Both the position numbers and the translations under genes were made by a program. The notes below the pieces were generated by a model that was given only the letters and a program-made list of their open reading frames with translations, was not told the origin of the DNA and made no database searches. A DNA stretch of 64,000 bases from Phycisphaerae bacterium (lineage in GTDB: Bacteria; Planctomycetota; Phycisphaerae; UBA1845), in assembly GCA_024102815.1 (NCBI GenBank), contig JAGFJJ010000007.1, positions 1 through 64,000 of the forward strand, written 5' to 3'. Below, one piece after another: positions 14,118 to 22,095 of the stretch (positions are counted from its first letter, which is position 1; every line of letters starts with the position of its first letter).

Positions 14118-14621
14118 CTACGGATGCGGTTGATTGTTCAGCTCATCGACGTCGCGCGAGATTCGCTCCGCCAGCGGTGTGATCGCACGAGAAACGGAGG
14201 TGGACATGTCCAGCGAACGATCAAACTGCTCGCCGAAAACCACGTAGATCCAGATGCGCTTCGGAAGCGCTTGAAGCGTTTGGGCGAGTTCCAGTCCCTG
14301 GGCGATGCCGATGGAATGCGAATCACCGGACGTTTTGCGCCGCAGCCGCTGCGCGTCCCGGGGATACATCAACCTGAGGAAGGAACCAGACGGATGTGCG
14401 TTGTCCGCCGGCGCCGCATCGATGAGCACCAGCAGGTCCGCCGACGCGAAGCTCCCGTCGGCCAGGTCCGTTCCCGGTGATTCGGAGAGGCGTACGTCAG
14501 CTTGCGGCAAGGCGTGATCAGCAATGAGTTCGGCGACGCGCAGACCGGCCTGGTCGTCGCCCATCGACCACCGCCCGCAGCCGAGGATGCACACCGCGGG
14601 CGGCACGGGAACTACTCCCAC
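14118..14621 (-). CDS. Hydrogenase maturation protease (HyaD/HycI family)
   Basis: This endopeptidase removes the C-terminal tail of the [NiFe]-hydrogenase large subunit after nickel insertion. The motif ILGCGRWSMGDDQAG matches the family GxGNxxxxDDGxG segment with its nickel-sensing Asp. VLIDAAP supplies the second Asp, and SGDSHSIGIAQGLELAQTL contains the expected His. A GTG start at 14621 is likely, overlapping the large-subunit stop codon by 10 bases, so translation is probably coupled. It is the last gene of the operon, directly after its substrate. Confidence 0.85.
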   Translation of the reverse strand: MGVVPVPPAVCILGCGRWSMGDDQAGLRVAELIADHALPQADVRLSESPGTDLADGSFASADLLVLIDAAPADNAHPSGSFLRLMYPRDAQRLRRKTSGDSHSIGIAQGLELAQTLQALPKRIWIYVVFGEQFDRSLDMSTSVSRAITPLAERISRDVDELNNQPHP

Positions 14622-15982
14622 TCGATGTCCAGAAAATGCGTAGCGCAGGAGATGCACGGGTCGTAGGCCCGCACGAGCATTTCCAGGCGAAGCGTCATTT
14701 CCTCCCGGGTCATGCCCGATTCCAGCAGTTGCGGCACCATGACGCGCATGTCCGCCTCGATGTTGGCGAGGTTCTGGCCGGTGGGAATGATGAGGTTGGC
14801 GTTCACGATCTTGCCGTCGCGGTCCAGTTCGTACTCGTGGAAGAGAATGCCGCGAGGAACATCGGCCGATCCCACGCCGAGACCGAAGCGACTCGGCTCG
14901 ACGAGCGGCTCGTCATGCAGCCCGCGTGTGAGGAGTTCGTCGATCAGCTCAATGGAGTGTTCGGTGCAATGCACGCACTCGACGAGCTGTGCCGTGTTGT
15001 TGTGGAACGGGTTTGTGCAGATCGGCTTGATGCCCAGTGCGGCCGCAACCTCCTTCGCATTGGGATGCAGTTGGTCAAAGTTGTTGTTGAACCGCGCCAG
15101 CGATCCCACCATGTACGCGGGAGCGTTGGGCGACTTGCAGTGCTTGGCGGCGGAGTGCTGCACCACGTCTTCGATCACCCGGCGGCGATACTCGCTGACC
15201 TCGGTCGGCTCGGGCTGAAGGTTGGAGTAGAGCTTCCCGTCGTAGAACGCATATTCCGATCCGTCCATCACCTTGAGTGACAGAAACTCCATGTCGCGGC
15301 GGAAGTCGGGAATCGGCAGGCAGGAGTACAACTGCGCCATTTCACCCAGGTCACTGCGCGATTCCTCCAGTCGCCGCTTGAGGGCGACGAGTTCCTCGGG
15401 TCTGGGCACGTGGGTGAAGCCGCCCGCGTGGCACGCGACGGGGTGAATGTGCCGTCCGCCGACGGCCCCGCAAATGTCGTTGGCCAGGCGTTTGAGCTTC
15501 AGCGCCCGCTTGACCACGTCGGGATGCGTCGAGGCGAGTGGAATGACCGACCCGGCACCGAAGAAATCCGGCACGGCCAGGAAGCAGACGTGAAGCACGT
15601 GGCTCTGCAATTGCTCGCCGTTAAAGAGCAGCTTACGGAGCAGGACGGTCTGTTCGGTGGGGACGATGCCCGTCGCCGCCTCGATCGCCTTGACCGAGGC
15701 CGTGGTGTGACCCACGGAGCAAATGCCGCACACGCGGCAGGTGATGTGCGGCGCCTCGTACCACCGCCGCCCGCGCAGGAAGGCCTCGAAGAAGCGCGGA
15801 CTCTCGACGATCTGAAGCTCGAGTTGCGTGATCGCGCCGTCACTGACGCGGACGACGATATTGCCGTGCCCCTCGACCCGGGTCACGTGCTTGACGTCGA
15901 TGGTGACGTTCTTGACGGCCGCCCGACGGGGCGGCGCGCCGTCCGAACTCTTCGGCTTGTTCTGCTGTTTCACGTCGGCCAT
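14612..15982 (-). CDS. hyhL: [NiFe]-hydrogenase group 3b, large (catalytic) subunit
   Basis: This subunit holds the NiFe centre of a cytoplasmic, reversible NAD(P)-linked hydrogenase that may also reduce sulfur. The N-terminal L1 motif is RVCGICSVGH with Cys85 and Cys88. The C-terminal L2 motif is DPCISCATH with Cys443 and Cys446. The expected cleavage after His449 releases only seven residues (FLDIEWE). All four Cys ligands are present, so the site should be active. The ATG at 15982 has GGAAGG upstream. A 111-base gap with a REP-like hairpin separates it from the small-subunit gene, whereas all other gene junctions in this operon are tight. Confidence 0.95.
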   Translation of the reverse strand: MADVKQQNKPKSSDGAPPRRAAVKNVTIDVKHVTRVEGHGNIVVRVSDGAITQLELQIVESPRFFEAFLRGRRWYEAPHITCRVCGICSVGHTTASVKAIEAATGIVPTEQTVLLRKLLFNGEQLQSHVLHVCFLAVPDFFGAGSVIPLASTHPDVVKRALKLKRLANDICGAVGGRHIHPVACHAGGFTHVPRPEELVALKRRLEESRSDLGEMAQLYSCLPIPDFRRDMEFLSLKVMDGSEYAFYDGKLYSNLQPEPTEVSEYRRRVIEDVVQHSAAKHCKSPNAPAYMVGSLARFNNNFDQLHPNAKEVAAALGIKPICTNPFHNNTAQLVECVHCTEHSIELIDELLTRGLHDEPLVEPSRFGLGVGSADVPRGILFHEYELDRDGKIVNANLIIPTGQNLANIEADMRVMVPQLLESGMTREEMTLRLEMLVRAYDPCISCATHFLDIEWE

Positions 15983-16074
15983 GATTGCCTTCCATCGACA
16001 GGAGAATGTGTCAACAAACGCCCGTCGTCTACTTCAAGGACCAATGTTGCAGAGCAGTGTCACACGCAAGGTCC

Positions 16075-16098
16075 GGTGCGCGAGAGGACGCACCTACG
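16075..16098. repeat. REP-like hairpin between hydrogenase subunit genes
   Basis: The hairpin GGTGCG-N8-CGCACC (16075-16094) is followed by TACG. On the minus strand it reads CGTAGGTGCGTCC, close to the GTAGGGTGCGTCC head of the RAYT-flanking REPs. It overlaps the stop codon of the small-subunit gene (16094-16096) and lies within the operon transcript before the large-subunit gene. Confidence 0.6.
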
Positions 16099-16837
16099 GC
16101 AGCTTTGCCTCCTGATACGCACCGAACAGCCGCAGGTCGGCCATCACGTCGTCCAGCGAGACGTTGTACTGCTCGCGCAAATTGACGCCCGCGGCGCGGA
16201 CGGCCTCCTCCGTGACGATCCCGCGGCAGCCTTCGCACTTGGATCCGAAACTGGGGCAGATCGCGTCGCAACCGGCACGGGTCACCGGCCCAAGGCAGAT
16301 CACGCCCTTTTCATACAGGCAGAGATTGCCCTTCCGCTTGCACTCCACGCAGACGGCATACTCGGGCAGGCGGAACGTCCGCCCGGCCAGCGTCAACTTG
16401 ACGAATTCCAGGAATTCTTCCTTGATCATCGGGCAGCCGGGTAACTCGAAGTCCACCTTGACCACGGCCGAGAGCGGACGGGCGGGGATCGTGGGGAACC
16501 ACCCCGCACGGTTGCCGTAGACATAGCTGCGGTAGTCGGCCTCGTTCTGGTAGTTCTTGAGCGTGTTGAGCCCGCCGAGGCAGGCGCACGCCCCGATGGC
16601 GACGAGCACCTTGCAGTGCTCGCGGAAGAGTCGGGCCTCTTTTTCGTCCTCCGGCGTGGAGACCGCCCCATCGACGAAACCGATGTCGATGTCCCAGCTT
16701 CGCTCGGTCATGCCTTCGCGGAAGTTCACAATCTCCACCGCGCCGAGGATATCGAGCAGCTCGTTTTCCAGTTCGAGGATCGCCAGCGAGCAGCCCTCGC
16801 AACTGGTCAGCGAGAAAATGCCGATCTTGGGTTTCAT
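16094..16837 (-). CDS. hyhS: [NiFe]-hydrogenase group 3b, small subunit
   Basis: This subunit carries the Fe-S clusters that wire the NiFe site to the flavin subunit. The 247-residue protein opens with FSLTSCEGCSLAILELE, where Cys13 and Cys16 bind the proximal cluster. It continues with the cluster ligands GACACLGG and LPGCPM, and ends with a cysteine-rich part (CVECKRKGNLCLYEKGVICLG, then CDAICPSFGSKCEGC). There is no Tat signal, in line with a cytoplasmic enzyme. The ATG at 16837 overlaps the stop of the flavin-subunit gene as ATGA, so the two are coupled. Confidence 0.94.
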   Translation of the reverse strand: MKPKIGIFSLTSCEGCSLAILELENELLDILGAVEIVNFREGMTERSWDIDIGFVDGAVSTPEDEKEARLFREHCKVLVAIGACACLGGLNTLKNYQNEADYRSYVYGNRAGWFPTIPARPLSAVVKVDFELPGCPMIKEEFLEFVKLTLAGRTFRLPEYAVCVECKRKGNLCLYEKGVICLGPVTRAGCDAICPSFGSKCEGCRGIVTEEAVRAAGVNLREQYNVSLDDVMADLRLFGAYQEAKLP

Positions 16838-17691
16838 TCGATCGCCTCCCGGAGGGCCTTCAGCTCTCCGTAGCGGAACACCGGACCCTCTAGGCAGACG
16901 TAGACGTTGTTCGCCTGGCAATGTCCGCACTTGCCCACGCCGCATTTCATCCGCCGCTCCAGGGAGCAGAAGACGTTCTTCTGGGGAACGCGCCGGGCAA
17001 GCACCTCCAGCACGACGAATTTGAACATGATCGGCGGGCCGACGATGACCACCATGGTCTCAAGCGGATCGATGGGCGGCAGCTCTCCGAACAACGTCGT
17101 CACCACGCCGCTACGTCCCCGCCACTGCTCGTCGGGGCGATCCACCGTCATGTGGAAGTTGACGTCGGGCGACTCCCGCCAGATCGTCAGATCGTTGCGG
17201 AACAGCAGCTCCGCCGGCGAGCGCGCCCCGTAAAGCAGATGAAACGCCCCGAAGCGGCTGCGCTCGTCGAGGATGTACTGAATCAGCGACCGGACCGGAG
17301 CCAGCCCCAACCCACCGGCAACGATGAGCACGTCCCGCCCGTGCATGTCATGCACGTCGAACCCGTGCCCCAGCGGCCCGCGAATGCCGATCGTGTCGCC
17401 CTTCTTGAGGCCGTGGATATGGCCGGTTACCTCGCCCACGCGGCGGACGCAGAGCTCAAAGTAGTCGCCACGTGTCGGGGAGGAGCAGATCGAAATGGGG
17501 CATTCGCCGATTCCCAGCAGGGACATCTGCACAAACTGCCCGGGGCCGTGCCCCAGCGGCTCGCCGCTGGACAGGCGGAAGCGATAGAGATTCTCCAGAT
17601 CCGTCAGTTTCTCGACCGCGACAACTTCCGCGGGCTGCGGCTCGTACAGCGTGCGGGCATGTTCCAGCGGTGCGGGAGCGATTGCGGTCAT
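16834..17691 (-). CDS. hyhG: Hydrogenase/sulfhydrogenase FAD-NAD(P)-binding subunit (gamma)
   Basis: This is a ferredoxin-NADP reductase-like subunit that passes electrons between NAD(P)H and the hydrogenase. The FAD-binding barrel ends with CPISICSSP, a variant of RxYS. The nucleotide-binding half has VLIVAGGLGLAPVRSL. The C-terminus carries a [2Fe-2S] site, MKCGVGKCGHCQANNVYVC, as in the dihydroorotate dehydrogenase PyrK/HydG group. The ATG at 17691 follows GGAGGAGGG, and its gene begins one base after the stop of the beta-subunit gene. Confidence 0.94.
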   Translation of the reverse strand: MTAIAPAPLEHARTLYEPQPAEVVAVEKLTDLENLYRFRLSSGEPLGHGPGQFVQMSLLGIGECPISICSSPTRGDYFELCVRRVGEVTGHIHGLKKGDTIGIRGPLGHGFDVHDMHGRDVLIVAGGLGLAPVRSLIQYILDERSRFGAFHLLYGARSPAELLFRNDLTIWRESPDVNFHMTVDRPDEQWRGRSGVVTTLFGELPPIDPLETMVVIVGPPIMFKFVVLEVLARRVPQKNVFCSLERRMKCGVGKCGHCQANNVYVCLEGPVFRYGELKALREAIE

Positions 17692-17692
17692 G

Positions 17693-18745
17693 TTATCCCT
17701 CCTCCGCAAGCTGATTGTAGATTTCCACCGAGTTGATCTTGGCGGTGCATGCTCGATCGCACCGCGCGCATCCCACGCAGCCCGGTATCCCCTCGCGTTC
17801 CAGGATCCACTTCCCCTTTCGGTAAATCCGATGTCGCAGGCGCGATGCCGCCTGCGGGCGGAAGTTGTGACCCCCCGCCACCGTCGCGAACTCGCGCAAC
17901 TGGCACCCGTCCCACTCTCGAACGCGCTGACCGGAGGAAAGGGTCAGGTCCAGCTTGTCAAACGTGTTGAAACAGAAACACGTGGGACAACTGAGATTGC
18001 AGCTTCCGCAGGAGTAGCAGCGGCGGGCGGTCGCCTCCCAGAGAAGGGAGTCGTAGCTGCGATCCAGCAAGGCGGGCAGACCATCGACATCGAACGGGAT
18101 GCGCCGCTGAAACGCCGCCCGTTTCTGGGCGCGGTAACGCTCAAATGCGCGCTCGTCTTCGACCGTCGGACGATCTCCGGCTTGCGCGTACAGCAGGAAC
18201 TCCCGGCCGGCGTCCGTCCCGAATTTGATCCCGTAGCGCATATCCTCAGAGGCGCCATTGGCGCTGAGGGGATAGCACATCAGATCGAACCCCTCGTTGG
18301 CCTCGTTGGATTTCATGTCCTCGCAGAACACGCCGGCGGTGCACTCGGCGGGACAATCCACGCCGATGATGAAGAGCTGTCGGCGCCGCGCCAGATAATG
18401 ATCGTCGCGATGGCTGTGCGAGAAGACCTGGTCAAGGAGGCGAATGGCGTTGATATCGCAGGGATGGACGCCGATCAGCGCCGTCGGTCGCTCGTCTAGC
18501 AGCGGCTTTGTGCGGAACGAACCGTTGTTCCGCTCAAACATGAACAGTTCTTCGCGTGCGGGAAACAGCACCTTCTTGGGGCTGTACACGCAGTAGTTGA
18601 ATTCGAGGTCGATCTCCCGCGCCTTGGCCACCGGCTCATAAAAAAACCGTTCGCCGCGGCGAACGGGCCCGATGATGCGCCGCGTACGCGCCAGTTCGTC
18701 GACGAGTTCCACGAGTCGGCCGCGGGTGATGATGCGGTCCAGCAT
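17693..18745 (-). CDS. hyhB: Hydrogenase/sulfhydrogenase beta subunit, 4Fe-4S dicluster
   Basis: This 350-residue protein matches the beta (HydB/HyhB) subunit of group 3b hydrogenases, an Fe-S relay related to anaerobic sulfite reductase subunit A. The N-terminal domain contains the family segment ALIGVHPCDINAIRLLDQVF. Two cluster motifs follow: CYSCGSCNLSCPTC, and CVGCARCDRACTAKI near the C-terminus. The ATG at 18745 has AGGAGTTGAG upstream. Only six bases separate it from the stop codon of the histidine kinase, so kinase and hydrogenase genes share a transcript. Confidence 0.93.
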   Translation of the reverse strand: MLDRIITRGRLVELVDELARTRRIIGPVRRGERFFYEPVAKAREIDLEFNYCVYSPKKVLFPAREELFMFERNNGSFRTKPLLDERPTALIGVHPCDINAIRLLDQVFSHSHRDDHYLARRRQLFIIGVDCPAECTAGVFCEDMKSNEANEGFDLMCYPLSANGASEDMRYGIKFGTDAGREFLLYAQAGDRPTVEDERAFERYRAQKRAAFQRRIPFDVDGLPALLDRSYDSLLWEATARRCYSCGSCNLSCPTCFCFNTFDKLDLTLSSGQRVREWDGCQLREFATVAGGHNFRPQAASRLRHRIYRKGKWILEREGIPGCVGCARCDRACTAKINSVEIYNQLAEEG

Positions 18746-18751
18746 GGCTGC

Positions 18752-20263
18752 TCAACTCCTGTCTGCTCTGCTGTTGCCGGAGACGAACCTCGGCCTGATC
18801 CGCGCTGATCGCGTGGCGCGTATTCGCGCCGTGTCCCGCTCGGGTTCGTGGCGTGGAAACGTGACGATGAACTCCGAACCCTCCCCCACCGTGGAGCGGA
18901 CTTCAATGCTCCCGTCGGCCTGTTCGACAACTTCGCGCACGATCGCCAGCCCCAAACCGGAACCCGGTATTCCCGCGGCCAGAGCCAGGTTTCCCCGCCG
19001 GAACGAATCGAAGATGTCGTCCGCCGATTCCTCTGCAATTCCCATTCCAGTGTCTTTTACCGAGACCGATATCGTGTCGGCGTCGCAATAACTGCGCACC
19101 TCCACCGAACCCCCTTCCGGCGTGTACTTAATGGCATTATCAATTAAGTTGCCGATACAATCGCGCAGGTCCCGTTCCGCCACGGCCGCCAGCGCCCCAC
19201 GACAGCCTGCCGAGGTCACCGTGAGCTGAATCTTCCGGGCCGACGCCAACTCGCCGTACCGTTTCACGACTTCACCCACAACCGCCGGGATTTCCGTCGT
19301 GGAAGCGGTGTGTTCGGACGGATCGGCCTCCTGAATCCGTGCCAGGGTCAGAAGTTCCGTCACCTGCACGATCGCCTCGCGGCAGCGATTGACGATCCGT
19401 CCCACCGTTTCATCAATCCGGTTTGGCGGAACGACATGGTCGCGGATCAGCCGGGCCAGCATCTCGATGCCTGTCAGCGGACTCTTGAGCTGATGAGCCG
19501 CCGTCTGCATGAACCGCGAGCGGCGCGCCTGGAGGTCCCGGATTGCATTCTGGCTGTGTTGCAGGGCTAGATTCATCTGGTGCTGCTCGCGCTCCTGCTG
19601 ATCGAGGCGCAGGGAGATCTGAAGCGTGAAGTACAGGGTGCCGAAGACACCGGCCGCGAGGACCACCACCCCCGCCGCCACGAGTGTCCAGTTCCTGTGG
19701 GCCGTTCCGGTCTCCGGGAGCGTGAGGAACGGATAATGCGGCTGAATCCAGCCGGCGACCTCGCCGAATCCAATCACACTGTACAGAAAGATGGCCCAGC
19801 ACCCCTGCAGGAGCGCCTGTCGCGGACGGAGCAACAGTGCCGCAATGAGCATGTGAAACAAATAGAACACGGCCATCGGGTTCTCGATGCCACCCGAGTA
19901 GCGGAGGATGACCGTGAGAATCAACAGATCGATGGTCATCTGCAGTGCGGCAAAGCGCTCGACACTGCGTTCCCTGCCTTCGGTTACGTCTTCCTCCCCT
20001 TCGATGTTTCGCAGGATGCCCCGGCCCATGATGGTCCAGATGACGTTGGCGACAGCCAAGGCCCCCACACAACCCATGACTTGGGGGGGCCTGGCCCCGG
20101 TGGGGAATAGGAAGCGTTCCACGAGGAGAACGGCCATCACGGCGAATGCGATGACCCAGCGCAGGCGGATGAACCAGTGATGGCGCACCATCGCCAGCAG
20201 GACGCGCACACGAAACGTAGTGCGCGGGATGCGCAGACTGGAAGCAGGTGGCAGAGAGTCCAT
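18752..20263 (-). CDS. Membrane sensor histidine kinase with RegB/PrrB-like GGxxNP motif
   Basis: The 503-residue protein has about six N-terminal hydrophobic segments (residues 30-215). It then has a short coiled linker, an H-box with His257 (AAHQLKSPLTGIE), and a complete HATPase domain: N-box NLIDNAIKYTPEGG, G1 VKDTGMGIAEE, F-box DSFRRG, G2 GSGLGLAIVREVVEQ. In the membrane part, residues 124-130 read GGIENPM, followed by AVFYLFHML. In RegB/PrrB the GGxxNPF heptapeptide between helices binds ubiquinone and sets kinase activity by redox state. The kinase sits between a lone receiver gene and the hydrogenase genes. Regulation of or by the hydrogenase is inferred from this context. Confidence 0.85.
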   Translation of the reverse strand: MDSLPPASSLRIPRTTFRVRVLLAMVRHHWFIRLRWVIAFAVMAVLLVERFLFPTGARPPQVMGCVGALAVANVIWTIMGRGILRNIEGEEDVTEGRERSVERFAALQMTIDLLILTVILRYSGGIENPMAVFYLFHMLIAALLLRPRQALLQGCWAIFLYSVIGFGEVAGWIQPHYPFLTLPETGTAHRNWTLVAAGVVVLAAGVFGTLYFTLQISLRLDQQEREQHQMNLALQHSQNAIRDLQARRSRFMQTAAHQLKSPLTGIEMLARLIRDHVVPPNRIDETVGRIVNRCREAIVQVTELLTLARIQEADPSEHTASTTEIPAVVGEVVKRYGELASARKIQLTVTSAGCRGALAAVAERDLRDCIGNLIDNAIKYTPEGGSVEVRSYCDADTISVSVKDTGMGIAEESADDIFDSFRRGNLALAAGIPGSGLGLAIVREVVEQADGSIEVRSTVGEGSEFIVTFPRHEPERDTARIRATRSARIRPRFVSGNSRADRS

Positions 20264-20278
20264 GTGAGGCCCGGACCG

Positions 20279-20689
20279 TCAGGATCGGCTGGCCGTGGAG
20301 GATTTGCCCAGTGTTTCCTTCACAGCCGAAAGTACCACTTCAGAGGTTAACGGCTTGTCCAGGAATTTCTCGACCGGAACGTAGTCGCTGCCCAACTCCC
20401 GGGCATAGTCCATGCCCATCGTGGCCCCGATCGAGGAGATCATGATAATGGGTATTCGCGACCGTCGCTCGTCGCGGCGCAGTTCATAGGCCAGATGGAA
20501 TCCCTCGGAAGGGGATGCCAGCATGATGTCCAGCAGTATGAGATCGGGCGGATCGCGCTCAATCGCGGCCATGCCTTCCGGGCCCGTGGCGCAACAGGTC
20601 AGGCGATAGCCGACGGGCTCGAGCATCATGGTCAGCGCTTCCCGAACGTCGGGATCGTCATCGATCACCAATATGTGTTCCTGGGCCAT
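20279..20689 (-). CDS. Stand-alone receiver (response regulator without output domain)
   Basis: The 136-residue protein is one CheY-like receiver. The acidic pair is Asp10/Asp11 (VIDDDPDV), the phosphoacceptor is Asp54 (LILLDIML), the switch Ser lies in IIMISSIGA and Lys112 is in FLDKPLT. A short tail follows Lys112 with no DNA-binding domain. It is the first gene of the hydrogenase operon, 15 bases upstream of the kinase. A receiver without an output domain must act on a protein partner or in a phosphorelay, unlike RegA, which carries its own HTH. Confidence 0.9.
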   Translation of the reverse strand: MAQEHILVIDDDPDVREALTMMLEPVGYRLTCCATGPEGMAAIERDPPDLILLDIMLASPSEGFHLAYELRRDERRSRIPIIMISSIGATMGMDYARELGSDYVPVEKFLDKPLTSEVVLSAVKETLGKSSTASRS

Positions 20690-21525
20690 TTTGGATCATC
20701 TCCCGGGCTTTTCAGCGGATGCGTCACGTCTGACGCGAAACTCGCGCACAATGCAGGCGCCACGTATAGCATACCGCCGACGAACTCGCTTGCATCCTTC
20801 GTGCCACTTTGTCCGGGCTCGGGGCGGAAACACGCAGTCGACCGTACGATCACCCGTGCCTCCAACCGGCCCCGGCCGGAAAAATCGAAGCCCGCGAAGG
20901 CGGGTCGGAGTCATCCTCGGGGAGGTGATTGAAGACGTTACCGCCCTTCCCCTCCAGCAGGAGGCTCTGACGACCTCCGCATGAAGCGCTCGGCCGTCGG
21001 CAAAAATCGTGTCAATTCGTTCAGGCCTCAGGGTTCCGTGGCAGTGAAATTTTCGCACATGAACCATTGAATCCGACTCAAACCGTGCACGCCACTGCCG
21101 TTCAACTGGCACTGCAAGCGATCGCCTCCCGCTTGGAATCCGACCGCAACTCTGAGCGGCGACTGAGGACTTCTTTGTCCCTGCTGGTGCCACATATGTT
21201 GCACCGGGGTTAGTACTCCACTGAGGTCTGCACGTACGCGTGCGCCTGAGATGCCATGAACATCCCGCACCTGCAACGAAGACGACAGTCAATACGGATC
21301 GATGGAGGAGAGCGACTTCCCAACAGTATTCTTGCCCAATAACAACAATTGTAATATGCTGTTCACTGGTTCATACCTATGATCCTCATGGTCTCGGGGC
21401 GCGCTGAGACCGAGGGTCTTGGTTCAGACGGGGCAAAGAGGCTTAGTATTTGTGTTCCAACCCGCTCTTGGGAGTGGGCTAAGAGGGCGTGTTTCGTAAC
21501 CACCACCGCAGGAGAATAACAGATT
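20690..21525. other. Long divergent intergenic region
   Basis: I see no supported gene between the first gene of the hydrogenase operon (leftward) and the zinc-finger gene (rightward). The region must hold both promoters. A distinctly AT-rich stretch at about 21325-21362 contains TTGTAATATGCT and is the best place for a promoter of the rightward gene. A dyad GGTGC-N10-GCACC lies at about 21184-21210. Confidence 0.45.
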
Positions 21526-22095
21526 ATGGCCAAGGGAAAATTCAAATGTCCCATGTGTGATCGGAGTTTCTCGATGGCAGCGCATCTCGCCCGCCATCAG
21601 AGCACGACGCACGGGACGAGAACAAAGAAGGCCGGGCGCCCCGCGGGGCGCGGCGCGGCGTCTCGTGGATGGCCTGCCGGTCGATTGAGCTACGCGGAAG
21701 GCAATGGTGCCGCACAACTCCGTCAAGCCATGCAGAACTATTATGACGAGCTCAATGCCCGTCGTGATGCCATCGAGCACGAAATAACCAACATCGCCAC
21801 CGCGATGCAGTCGATCGGCGGTACGGCAGCGGCTGCGCCGGCCAGGCGTGGACCGGGTCGTCCACCGGGTCGCCCCGCTGCGGCAGGCCGAGGTGGTCGT
21901 GCCGGTTCTCTGCGCGAGTACGTTGTCGGCGTCTTGAAGAGCAGTCCTGAACCGATGAGTCCTCGGGACATCGCCGGCGCCGTCCAGAAATCCGGCTACA
22001 AGACCAAGGCGAAGGATCTCACCAAGGCGGTGAGCAACCTTCTCCCACATCTCAGCGGGATCAAGAAGGTCGGGTTCGGCAAGTACAAGATGTAG
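21526..22095 (+). CDS. C2H2 zinc-finger protein with AT-hook-like linkers and C-terminal HTH
   Basis: The 189-residue protein is built like a small chromatin or transcription factor. Residues 6-29 form a classical C2H2 finger: CPMC, twelve residues, then His-x4-His (HQSTTH). A Gly-Arg-Pro linker (KKAGRPAGRG) leads to a predicted helix (LRQAMQNYYDELNARRDAIE). A second basic Gly-Arg-Pro run (RRGPGRPPGRPAAAGRGGRA) resembles tandem AT-hooks. The C-terminal 65 residues (SLREYVVGVLKSSPEPMSPR onward) resemble a HARE/winged-helix domain. The ATG at 21526 has GGAGAATAACAG upstream. It is monocistronic. DNA binding is inferred; the target is unknown. Confidence 0.7.
   Translation: MAKGKFKCPMCDRSFSMAAHLARHQSTTHGTRTKKAGRPAGRGAASRGWPAGRLSYAEGNGAAQLRQAMQNYYDELNARRDAIEHEITNIATAMQSIGGTAAAAPARRGPGRPPGRPAAAGRGGRAGSLREYVVGVLKSSPEPMSPRDIAGAVQKSGYKTKAKDLTKAVSNLLPHLSGIKKVGFGKYKM

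Follow-up and report, generated by a model that had tools for sequence, protein, structure and literature searches.

Among the two-component systems that control hydrogenase genes, regulators of the HupR/HoxA type are NtrC-like. The sensor kinase RegB has two sensing features, the heptapeptide GGXXNPF and Cys-265 (PMC8191878), and the RegB/RegA system controls hydrogen utilisation (PMC5359404). In Caulobacter the kinase FixL is inhibited by FixT, a single-domain receiver with a bound Fe-S cluster (PMC7078487). Here we describe a receiver–kinase pair that leads a hydrogenase operon and compare it with these systems. The operon lies in a 5.1-Mb, Phycisphaerae-related planctomycete assembly, in a stretch of 64,000 nucleotides that we refer to as the window. 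A preliminary description had placed seven genes, in the order receiver, kinase, hyhB, hyhG, hyhS, hyhL and protease, on the minus strand between positions 14118 and 20689, and all seven lie as placed. The features of the locus are as follows:

20791..20806, minus strand: sigma-54-like −24/−12 site TGGCACGAAGGATGCA, some 100 bases ahead of the receiver start (suggestive only)
20279..20689, minus strand: single-domain response regulator, 136 aa (Pfam Response_reg, 58.9 bits; D54 as phospho-acceptor, S85, K112)
18752..20263, minus strand: membrane histidine kinase, 503 aa (six TM helices, H-box AAHQLKSPL, HATPase_c)
19874..19894, minus strand: GGIENPM, kinase residues 124–130, in the TM3–TM4 loop, equivalent to RegB GGxxNPF (GG and NP superposed by hhalign)
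17693..18745, minus strand: hyhB, sulfhydrogenase beta subunit, 4Fe-4S (NCBIfam ShyB, 207.8 bits)
16834..17691, minus strand: hyhG, sulfhydrogenase gamma subunit, FAD/NAD(P) reductase (NCBIfam PRK08345, 270 bits; HydG, 215 bits)
16094..16837, minus strand: hyhS, hydrogenase small subunit, delta (NCBIfam HydD, 161 bits; Pfam Oxidored_q6)
14612..15982, minus strand: hyhL, [NiFe] large subunit, alpha (NCBIfam ShyA, 267 bits; Pfam NiFeSe_Hases)
14118..14657, minus strand: hydrogenase maturation protease of the HycI type, HycI/hydrog_prot (TIGR00072, 67 bits)

The measured junctions reproduce the spacings reported earlier: 15 bases from receiver stop to kinase start, 6 bases from kinase stop to hyhB start and 111 bases between hyhS and hyhL, with the later genes otherwise touching or overlapping. 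The start of hyhG is most likely the ATG at 17691, which is preferred over the TTG at 17709, and the start of hyhS is most likely at 16837 (MKPKIG), overlapping the hyhG stop; the mechanical open reading frames are therefore overlong at their 5′ ends. The large subunit HyhL contains both nickel-ligand motifs (L1, RVCGICSVGH, and L2, DPCISCATH; CxxC twice in the sequence), and its nearest solved structures are the alpha chains of cytosolic hydrogenase and sulfhydrogenase 1. Sulfhydrogenase-type diaphorase subunits, beta and gamma, are present (ShyB/HydB and ShyC/HydG matches), and these subunits, together with the relatives of the large subunit, uphold the earlier assignment of the enzyme to group 3b. 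HyhG has FAD- and NAD-binding domains (Pfam), and NAD(P)-linked hydrogen turnover is a prediction. The genome's own hypE, at C14:190526, does not adjoin the operon; in many relatives hypE lies just upstream of the receiver. A candidate attenuator in the start of hyhB (18666–18647, minus strand; a perfect 8-bp hairpin followed by seven T) was rejected as coding-driven and not conserved in 17 orthologues. Upstream of the operon, on the plus strand of the window (21526–22095), is a gene for a 189-aa protein that starts MAKGKFKCPMCDRSFSMAAHLARH, like the start of a C2H2-type zinc finger, and that has no NCBIfam match.

The kinase has the Pfam domains HisKA and HATPase_c and a weak 6TM_PilS match at residues 102–166. 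An AlphaFold model (mean pLDDT 89.2, pTM 0.82) contains helices at residues 30–52, 60–88, 95–123, 129–144, 147–170 and 192–244, and it puts GGIENPM, previously noted as lying between membrane helices, in the loop that joins TM3 (95–123) to TM4 (129–144). To place this loop relative to that of RegB we compared by hhalign a profile of nine operon kinases with a profile of the RegB-like kinase of the same genome and six ActS/RegB references. The two profiles align with a probability of 98.8% (E 4e-17, 186 columns), GGIENP falling on GGPRNP in register, that is, GG on GG and NP on NP, and the membrane-domain comparison survives this check. A search of the PDB for structural relatives of the kinase membrane domain found none. 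We conclude that, as judged from sequence, the membrane domain is homologous to that of RegB and that the comparison is, to this extent, sound.

The kinase is nevertheless not RegB. The NCBIfam RegB/ActS model NF033792 matches residues 25–472 with 103 bits, below the curated cut-off of 350, and in a phylogenetic tree the RegB references (including the RegB-like kinase on contig C14 of the same genome) and the operon kinase family form two clades, both at 100/100, on long branches. Residues G124, G125, P129, Q108, D112, F136 and H137 are invariant across 44 sequences, and the loop region is among the best-conserved stretches of the membrane domain; among 40 close kinases, however, position 128 holds Asn in 27 cases and Ser in the other 13, and position 130 is Met or Leu, replacing Phe, in 38 (Met in the window kinase). 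The family consensus of the loop is GGxx[NS]P[M/L], mostly without Phe, so that the strict quinone motif is absent. The second sensing feature of RegB is the redox-box cysteine at His+40, Cys265 in R. capsulatus. The RegB/ActS references have RCR at about His+40, whereas the window kinase and the other hydrogenase-linked kinases have RC at His+37, earlier by one turn of the helix. The redox-box cysteine was accordingly rejected as a feature common with RegB, both H-box distance and alignment placing the family's cysteine three residues earlier; no cysteine occupies the family's alignment column in any of 12 other histidine kinases of the same genome.

The same genome also encodes a closer relative of RegB (contig C14, 26929–28134; 228 bits, also below the curated RegB cut-off), which has AGGPRNPF and a redox-box cysteine at the RegB position, with a RegA-like regulator next to it and cytochrome-oxidase-like membrane proteins nearby. 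At two loci of relatives (L165, 6888–9302, and L172, 4029–6560) a kinase of the operon kinase family lies beside a Crp/Fnr-type regulator, and the kinases of this subgroup are without a cysteine at His+37. The RegB likeness claimed for the window kinase thus stands for the membrane domain and does not extend to the kinase as a whole, in view of its separate clade, its 103 bits against 350, and its lack of the Phe and of the redox-box cysteine. It should be filed as a member of a new family, RegB-like but distinct, that goes with single-domain receivers and, in a planctomycete order, is associated with enzymes of hydrogen metabolism and fermentation.

A quinone is a plausible ligand of this kinase, given its homology to RegB, the invariant polar residues close to the loop and the redox functions of neighbouring genes. 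The quinone pool would be menaquinone, since the genome contains two futalosine-pathway-type menaquinone proteins and no MenD above cut-off. The loop may instead be structural only, in which case a kinase with the RegB membrane fold would sense proton-motive force, a different lipophilic compound or a partner protein in the membrane. The drift of the motif at Phe and Asn, the displaced cysteine, the 100/100 separation of the RegB clade and the weak match of the PilS six-TM model to residues 102–166 are all in keeping with a structural loop, but the high conservation of the loop, the closeness in sequence of the polar invariants Q108, D112 and H137, and the presence of redox enzymes as neighbours in most contexts make it somewhat unlikely, and we keep (mena)quinone as the candidate signal.

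To determine whether the gene order is conserved in relatives we searched 298 genomes of the class, 154 of which contain a related large subunit, and read about 40 large-subunit loci, 27 loci in named genomes found through one peptide pattern of the kinase membrane domain, and 20 further stretches round kinase matches. The results show that the receiver–kinase pair lies immediately before hyhB, on the same strand, at 16 distinct loci, the window among them (one locus, in genome G260, being split over two contigs), and that it has the same order, but with a 3.2-kb gap to hyhB, at one more (L135); the gene order thus survives this check too. In most loci measured, the hyhB start lies within 20 bases of the kinase stop or overlaps it. 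At one locus (L040) the pair is inserted between hyhB and hyhG, and at another (L137) receiver–kinase and hyhB are divergently transcribed; this insertion, this divergence and the 3.2-kb gap show that cotranscription is not required. A receiver–kinase gene fusion at L142/L163 was ruled out, the coordinates placing the two genes in different reading frames. In another family of the class, at L179 and L059, a more distant kinase family (GGIENPF, H-box HDIKGHL) lies beside group 3b genes. A literature search of limited extent found no described hydrogenase-linked receiver/kinase pair in planctomycetes.

The receiver had been described as having no DNA-binding domain, and it is indeed receiver-only, both here (Pfam) and in all 55 aligned homologues, none of which has an output domain; the phosphotransfer residues are intact, with D54 present in 54 and K112 in 55 of the 55. 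The nearest paralogue in the genome is only 34% identical, and there is no close one. Because the receiver is a single domain, its output must pass through another protein. That protein could be a direct target, the receiver binding the hydrogenase or a maturation factor, or feeding back on the kinase, and not acting via a transcription factor. A lone receiver without kinase precedes hyhB at seven loci (L035, L037, L041, L050, L051, L052 and L055), which indicates that the link between receiver and hyhB is wider than that of the kinase, and many aligned receivers have adjacent cysteines (C32 in 36/55, C33 in 28/55), which would also suit direct action. However, like receivers occur at unrelated enzymes (group-1 hydrogenase, PFOR), which argues against one specific enzyme contact, and the four-Cys motif of FixT is absent from the 55 aligned receivers. 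We regard direct action as unlikely, and favour a partner outside the operon.

One candidate route to such a partner is the sigma-54-like site upstream of the receiver. The sigma-54 pattern was one of four motif types tried there; in the upstream 300 bases its score was matched in 3 of 1000 dinucleotide shuffles, and window-wide it is not significant on its own. In the region before the receiver, no clear excess over chance was seen for FNR, CRP or Rex sites. A sigma-54-like site was also found in two close relatives, at L134 (0.004) and L137 (0.001), both likewise without hypE upstream, and not at L133 or L135, and the genome has rpoN and 11 activator domains. The sequence thus suggests a sigma-54 promoter as a possible output route. 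NtrC-type proteins, considered as candidate output proteins, occur near some hydrogenase loci (L041, L066, L067 and L071).

The kinase family also occurs beside other enzymes: a group-1 hydrogenase with NrfD (L140/L161, L164), Vhu/Mvh-like hydrogenases (L146, L167, L138, L174), PFOR (L144, L145/L162, L171, L173, L175), and HypF (L168), a Crp/Fnr regulator (L165, L172) or a cytochrome c assembly protein (L166). The wording of the preliminary description, in which the hydrogenase is led by its own two-component system, therefore understates the matter, the pair not being tied to group 3b. At L140 (4204–11521) and L164 the group-1 operon (large, small, FeS, NrfD) is followed directly by the receiver–kinase pair. 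At L146 (8892–12832) and L167 the Vhu/Mvh-like genes are followed by a stand-alone cyclic-nucleotide-binding-domain protein and then the receiver, with the kinase nearby.

In 14 of 26 cases a close kinase has a [NiFe] large-subunit gene no more than 10 kb away, always on its own strand, vs. an expected 0.22 (P about 3e-23 by position alone, before kinship, the related genomes not being independent), and every searched genome that contains the close kinase family also contains a [NiFe] hydrogenase. For the partner label the kinase tree requires 16 changes; the lowest possible number for ten labels is 9, and shuffling gives 24.7 on average, indicating that the linkage is inherited yet has repeatedly been switched. 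The recurrence of the sensor pair beside hydrogen and fermentation enzymes points to a hitherto undescribed redox switch acting on hydrogen metabolism.

The linkage to several kinds of hydrogenase-related genes (3b, Vhu/Mvh-like, group 1, HypF) would also be expected of a kinase that responds to hydrogen or to the activity of a hydrogenase, in the manner of HupT/HoxJ, which rely on a regulatory hydrogenase. But the genome has no second [NiFe] large subunit, both of its PF00374 matches being parts of hyhL, the kinase has no PAS domain (Pfam), and several relatives have the pair with PFOR instead of a hydrogenase; hydrogen sensing is accordingly improbable. That the pair sits in the operon by chance, without regulating it, is scarcely credible, for although gene order varies (L040, L137, L135) and 12 of the 26 kinases have no hydrogenase large-subunit gene nearby, the association is about 60-fold over chance and recurs, on the kinase tree, with several types of enzyme.

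According to the reading that we prefer, receiver and kinase together act as a redox-sensing module for the control of the hydrogenase and related fermentative redox genes, with (mena)quinone as signal and an external partner as output; we give this reading an even chance. The six-helix membrane domain, with its RegB fold, would most likely bind (mena)quinone at the loop GGxENP, close to which lie the conserved transmembrane residues Q108, D112 and H137. The redox state of the pool would set, with one sign of response or the other, autophosphorylation at the H-box histidine; phosphate would presumably pass to D54 of the single-domain receiver; and the phosphorylated receiver would act on a putative partner outside the operon; in the window's subclade, one candidate for this partner is an activator that works with sigma-54 at the upstream promoter. 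More broadly, and with a little less assurance, we propose that an undescribed family of RegB-fold kinases, tuned to low-potential menaquinone and paired with receivers that have no DNA-binding domain, may constitute a portable redox switch that has been redeployed in a single planctomycete order, next to group 3b, Vhu/Mvh-like and group-1 hydrogenases, PFOR and maturation genes; a TM4 histidine and a dimerisation-domain cysteine of the family's own would replace the features of RegB.

The conserved sensor pair makes the role and the trigger of group 3b hydrogenases testable, naming a candidate signal (menaquinone redox state), candidate residues (GG124-125, H137 and the Cys at His+37) and a promoter type. 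If the proposal is true, the window kinase would be a sensor with the RegB fold that uses menaquinone and operates with a partner unable to bind DNA.

In comparison with known systems, the window kinase resembles those of RegB/RegA, PrrB/PrrA, ActS/ActR and RoxS/RoxR in being a six-TM histidine kinase with a GGxxNP loop between TM3 and TM4, in register, and the locus resembles RegB/RegA in its link to redox and hydrogenase genes. It differs in the H-box (HQLKSPL, vs. HELGTPL in RegB) and in the receiver, which has no Fis-type HTH like that of RegA, whereas a RegA-like protein follows the C14 kinase. With HupT/HupR and HoxJ/HoxA (together with HupUV/HoxBC) it has in common two-component control linked to [NiFe] hydrogenase genes and, here, a sigma-54-like site; those systems, however, use a regulatory (group 2b) hydrogenase and a PAS kinase, neither of which is found here (PF00374 genome search, Pfam), whereas the window has a membrane kinase and a receiver without AAA or HTH domain. 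Like FixT, the receiver is a receiver-only protein of a two-component pathway linked to redox or oxygen (PMC7078487); unlike FixT, it has no four-Cys motif and is encoded in a metabolic operon. The enzyme itself, with all four subunits and the protease, is like the group 3b hydrogenases/sulfhydrogenases (HydBGDA, ShyABCD), and what sets its operon apart from known group 3b operons is that a receiver and a kinase lead it and that hypE is not adjacent.
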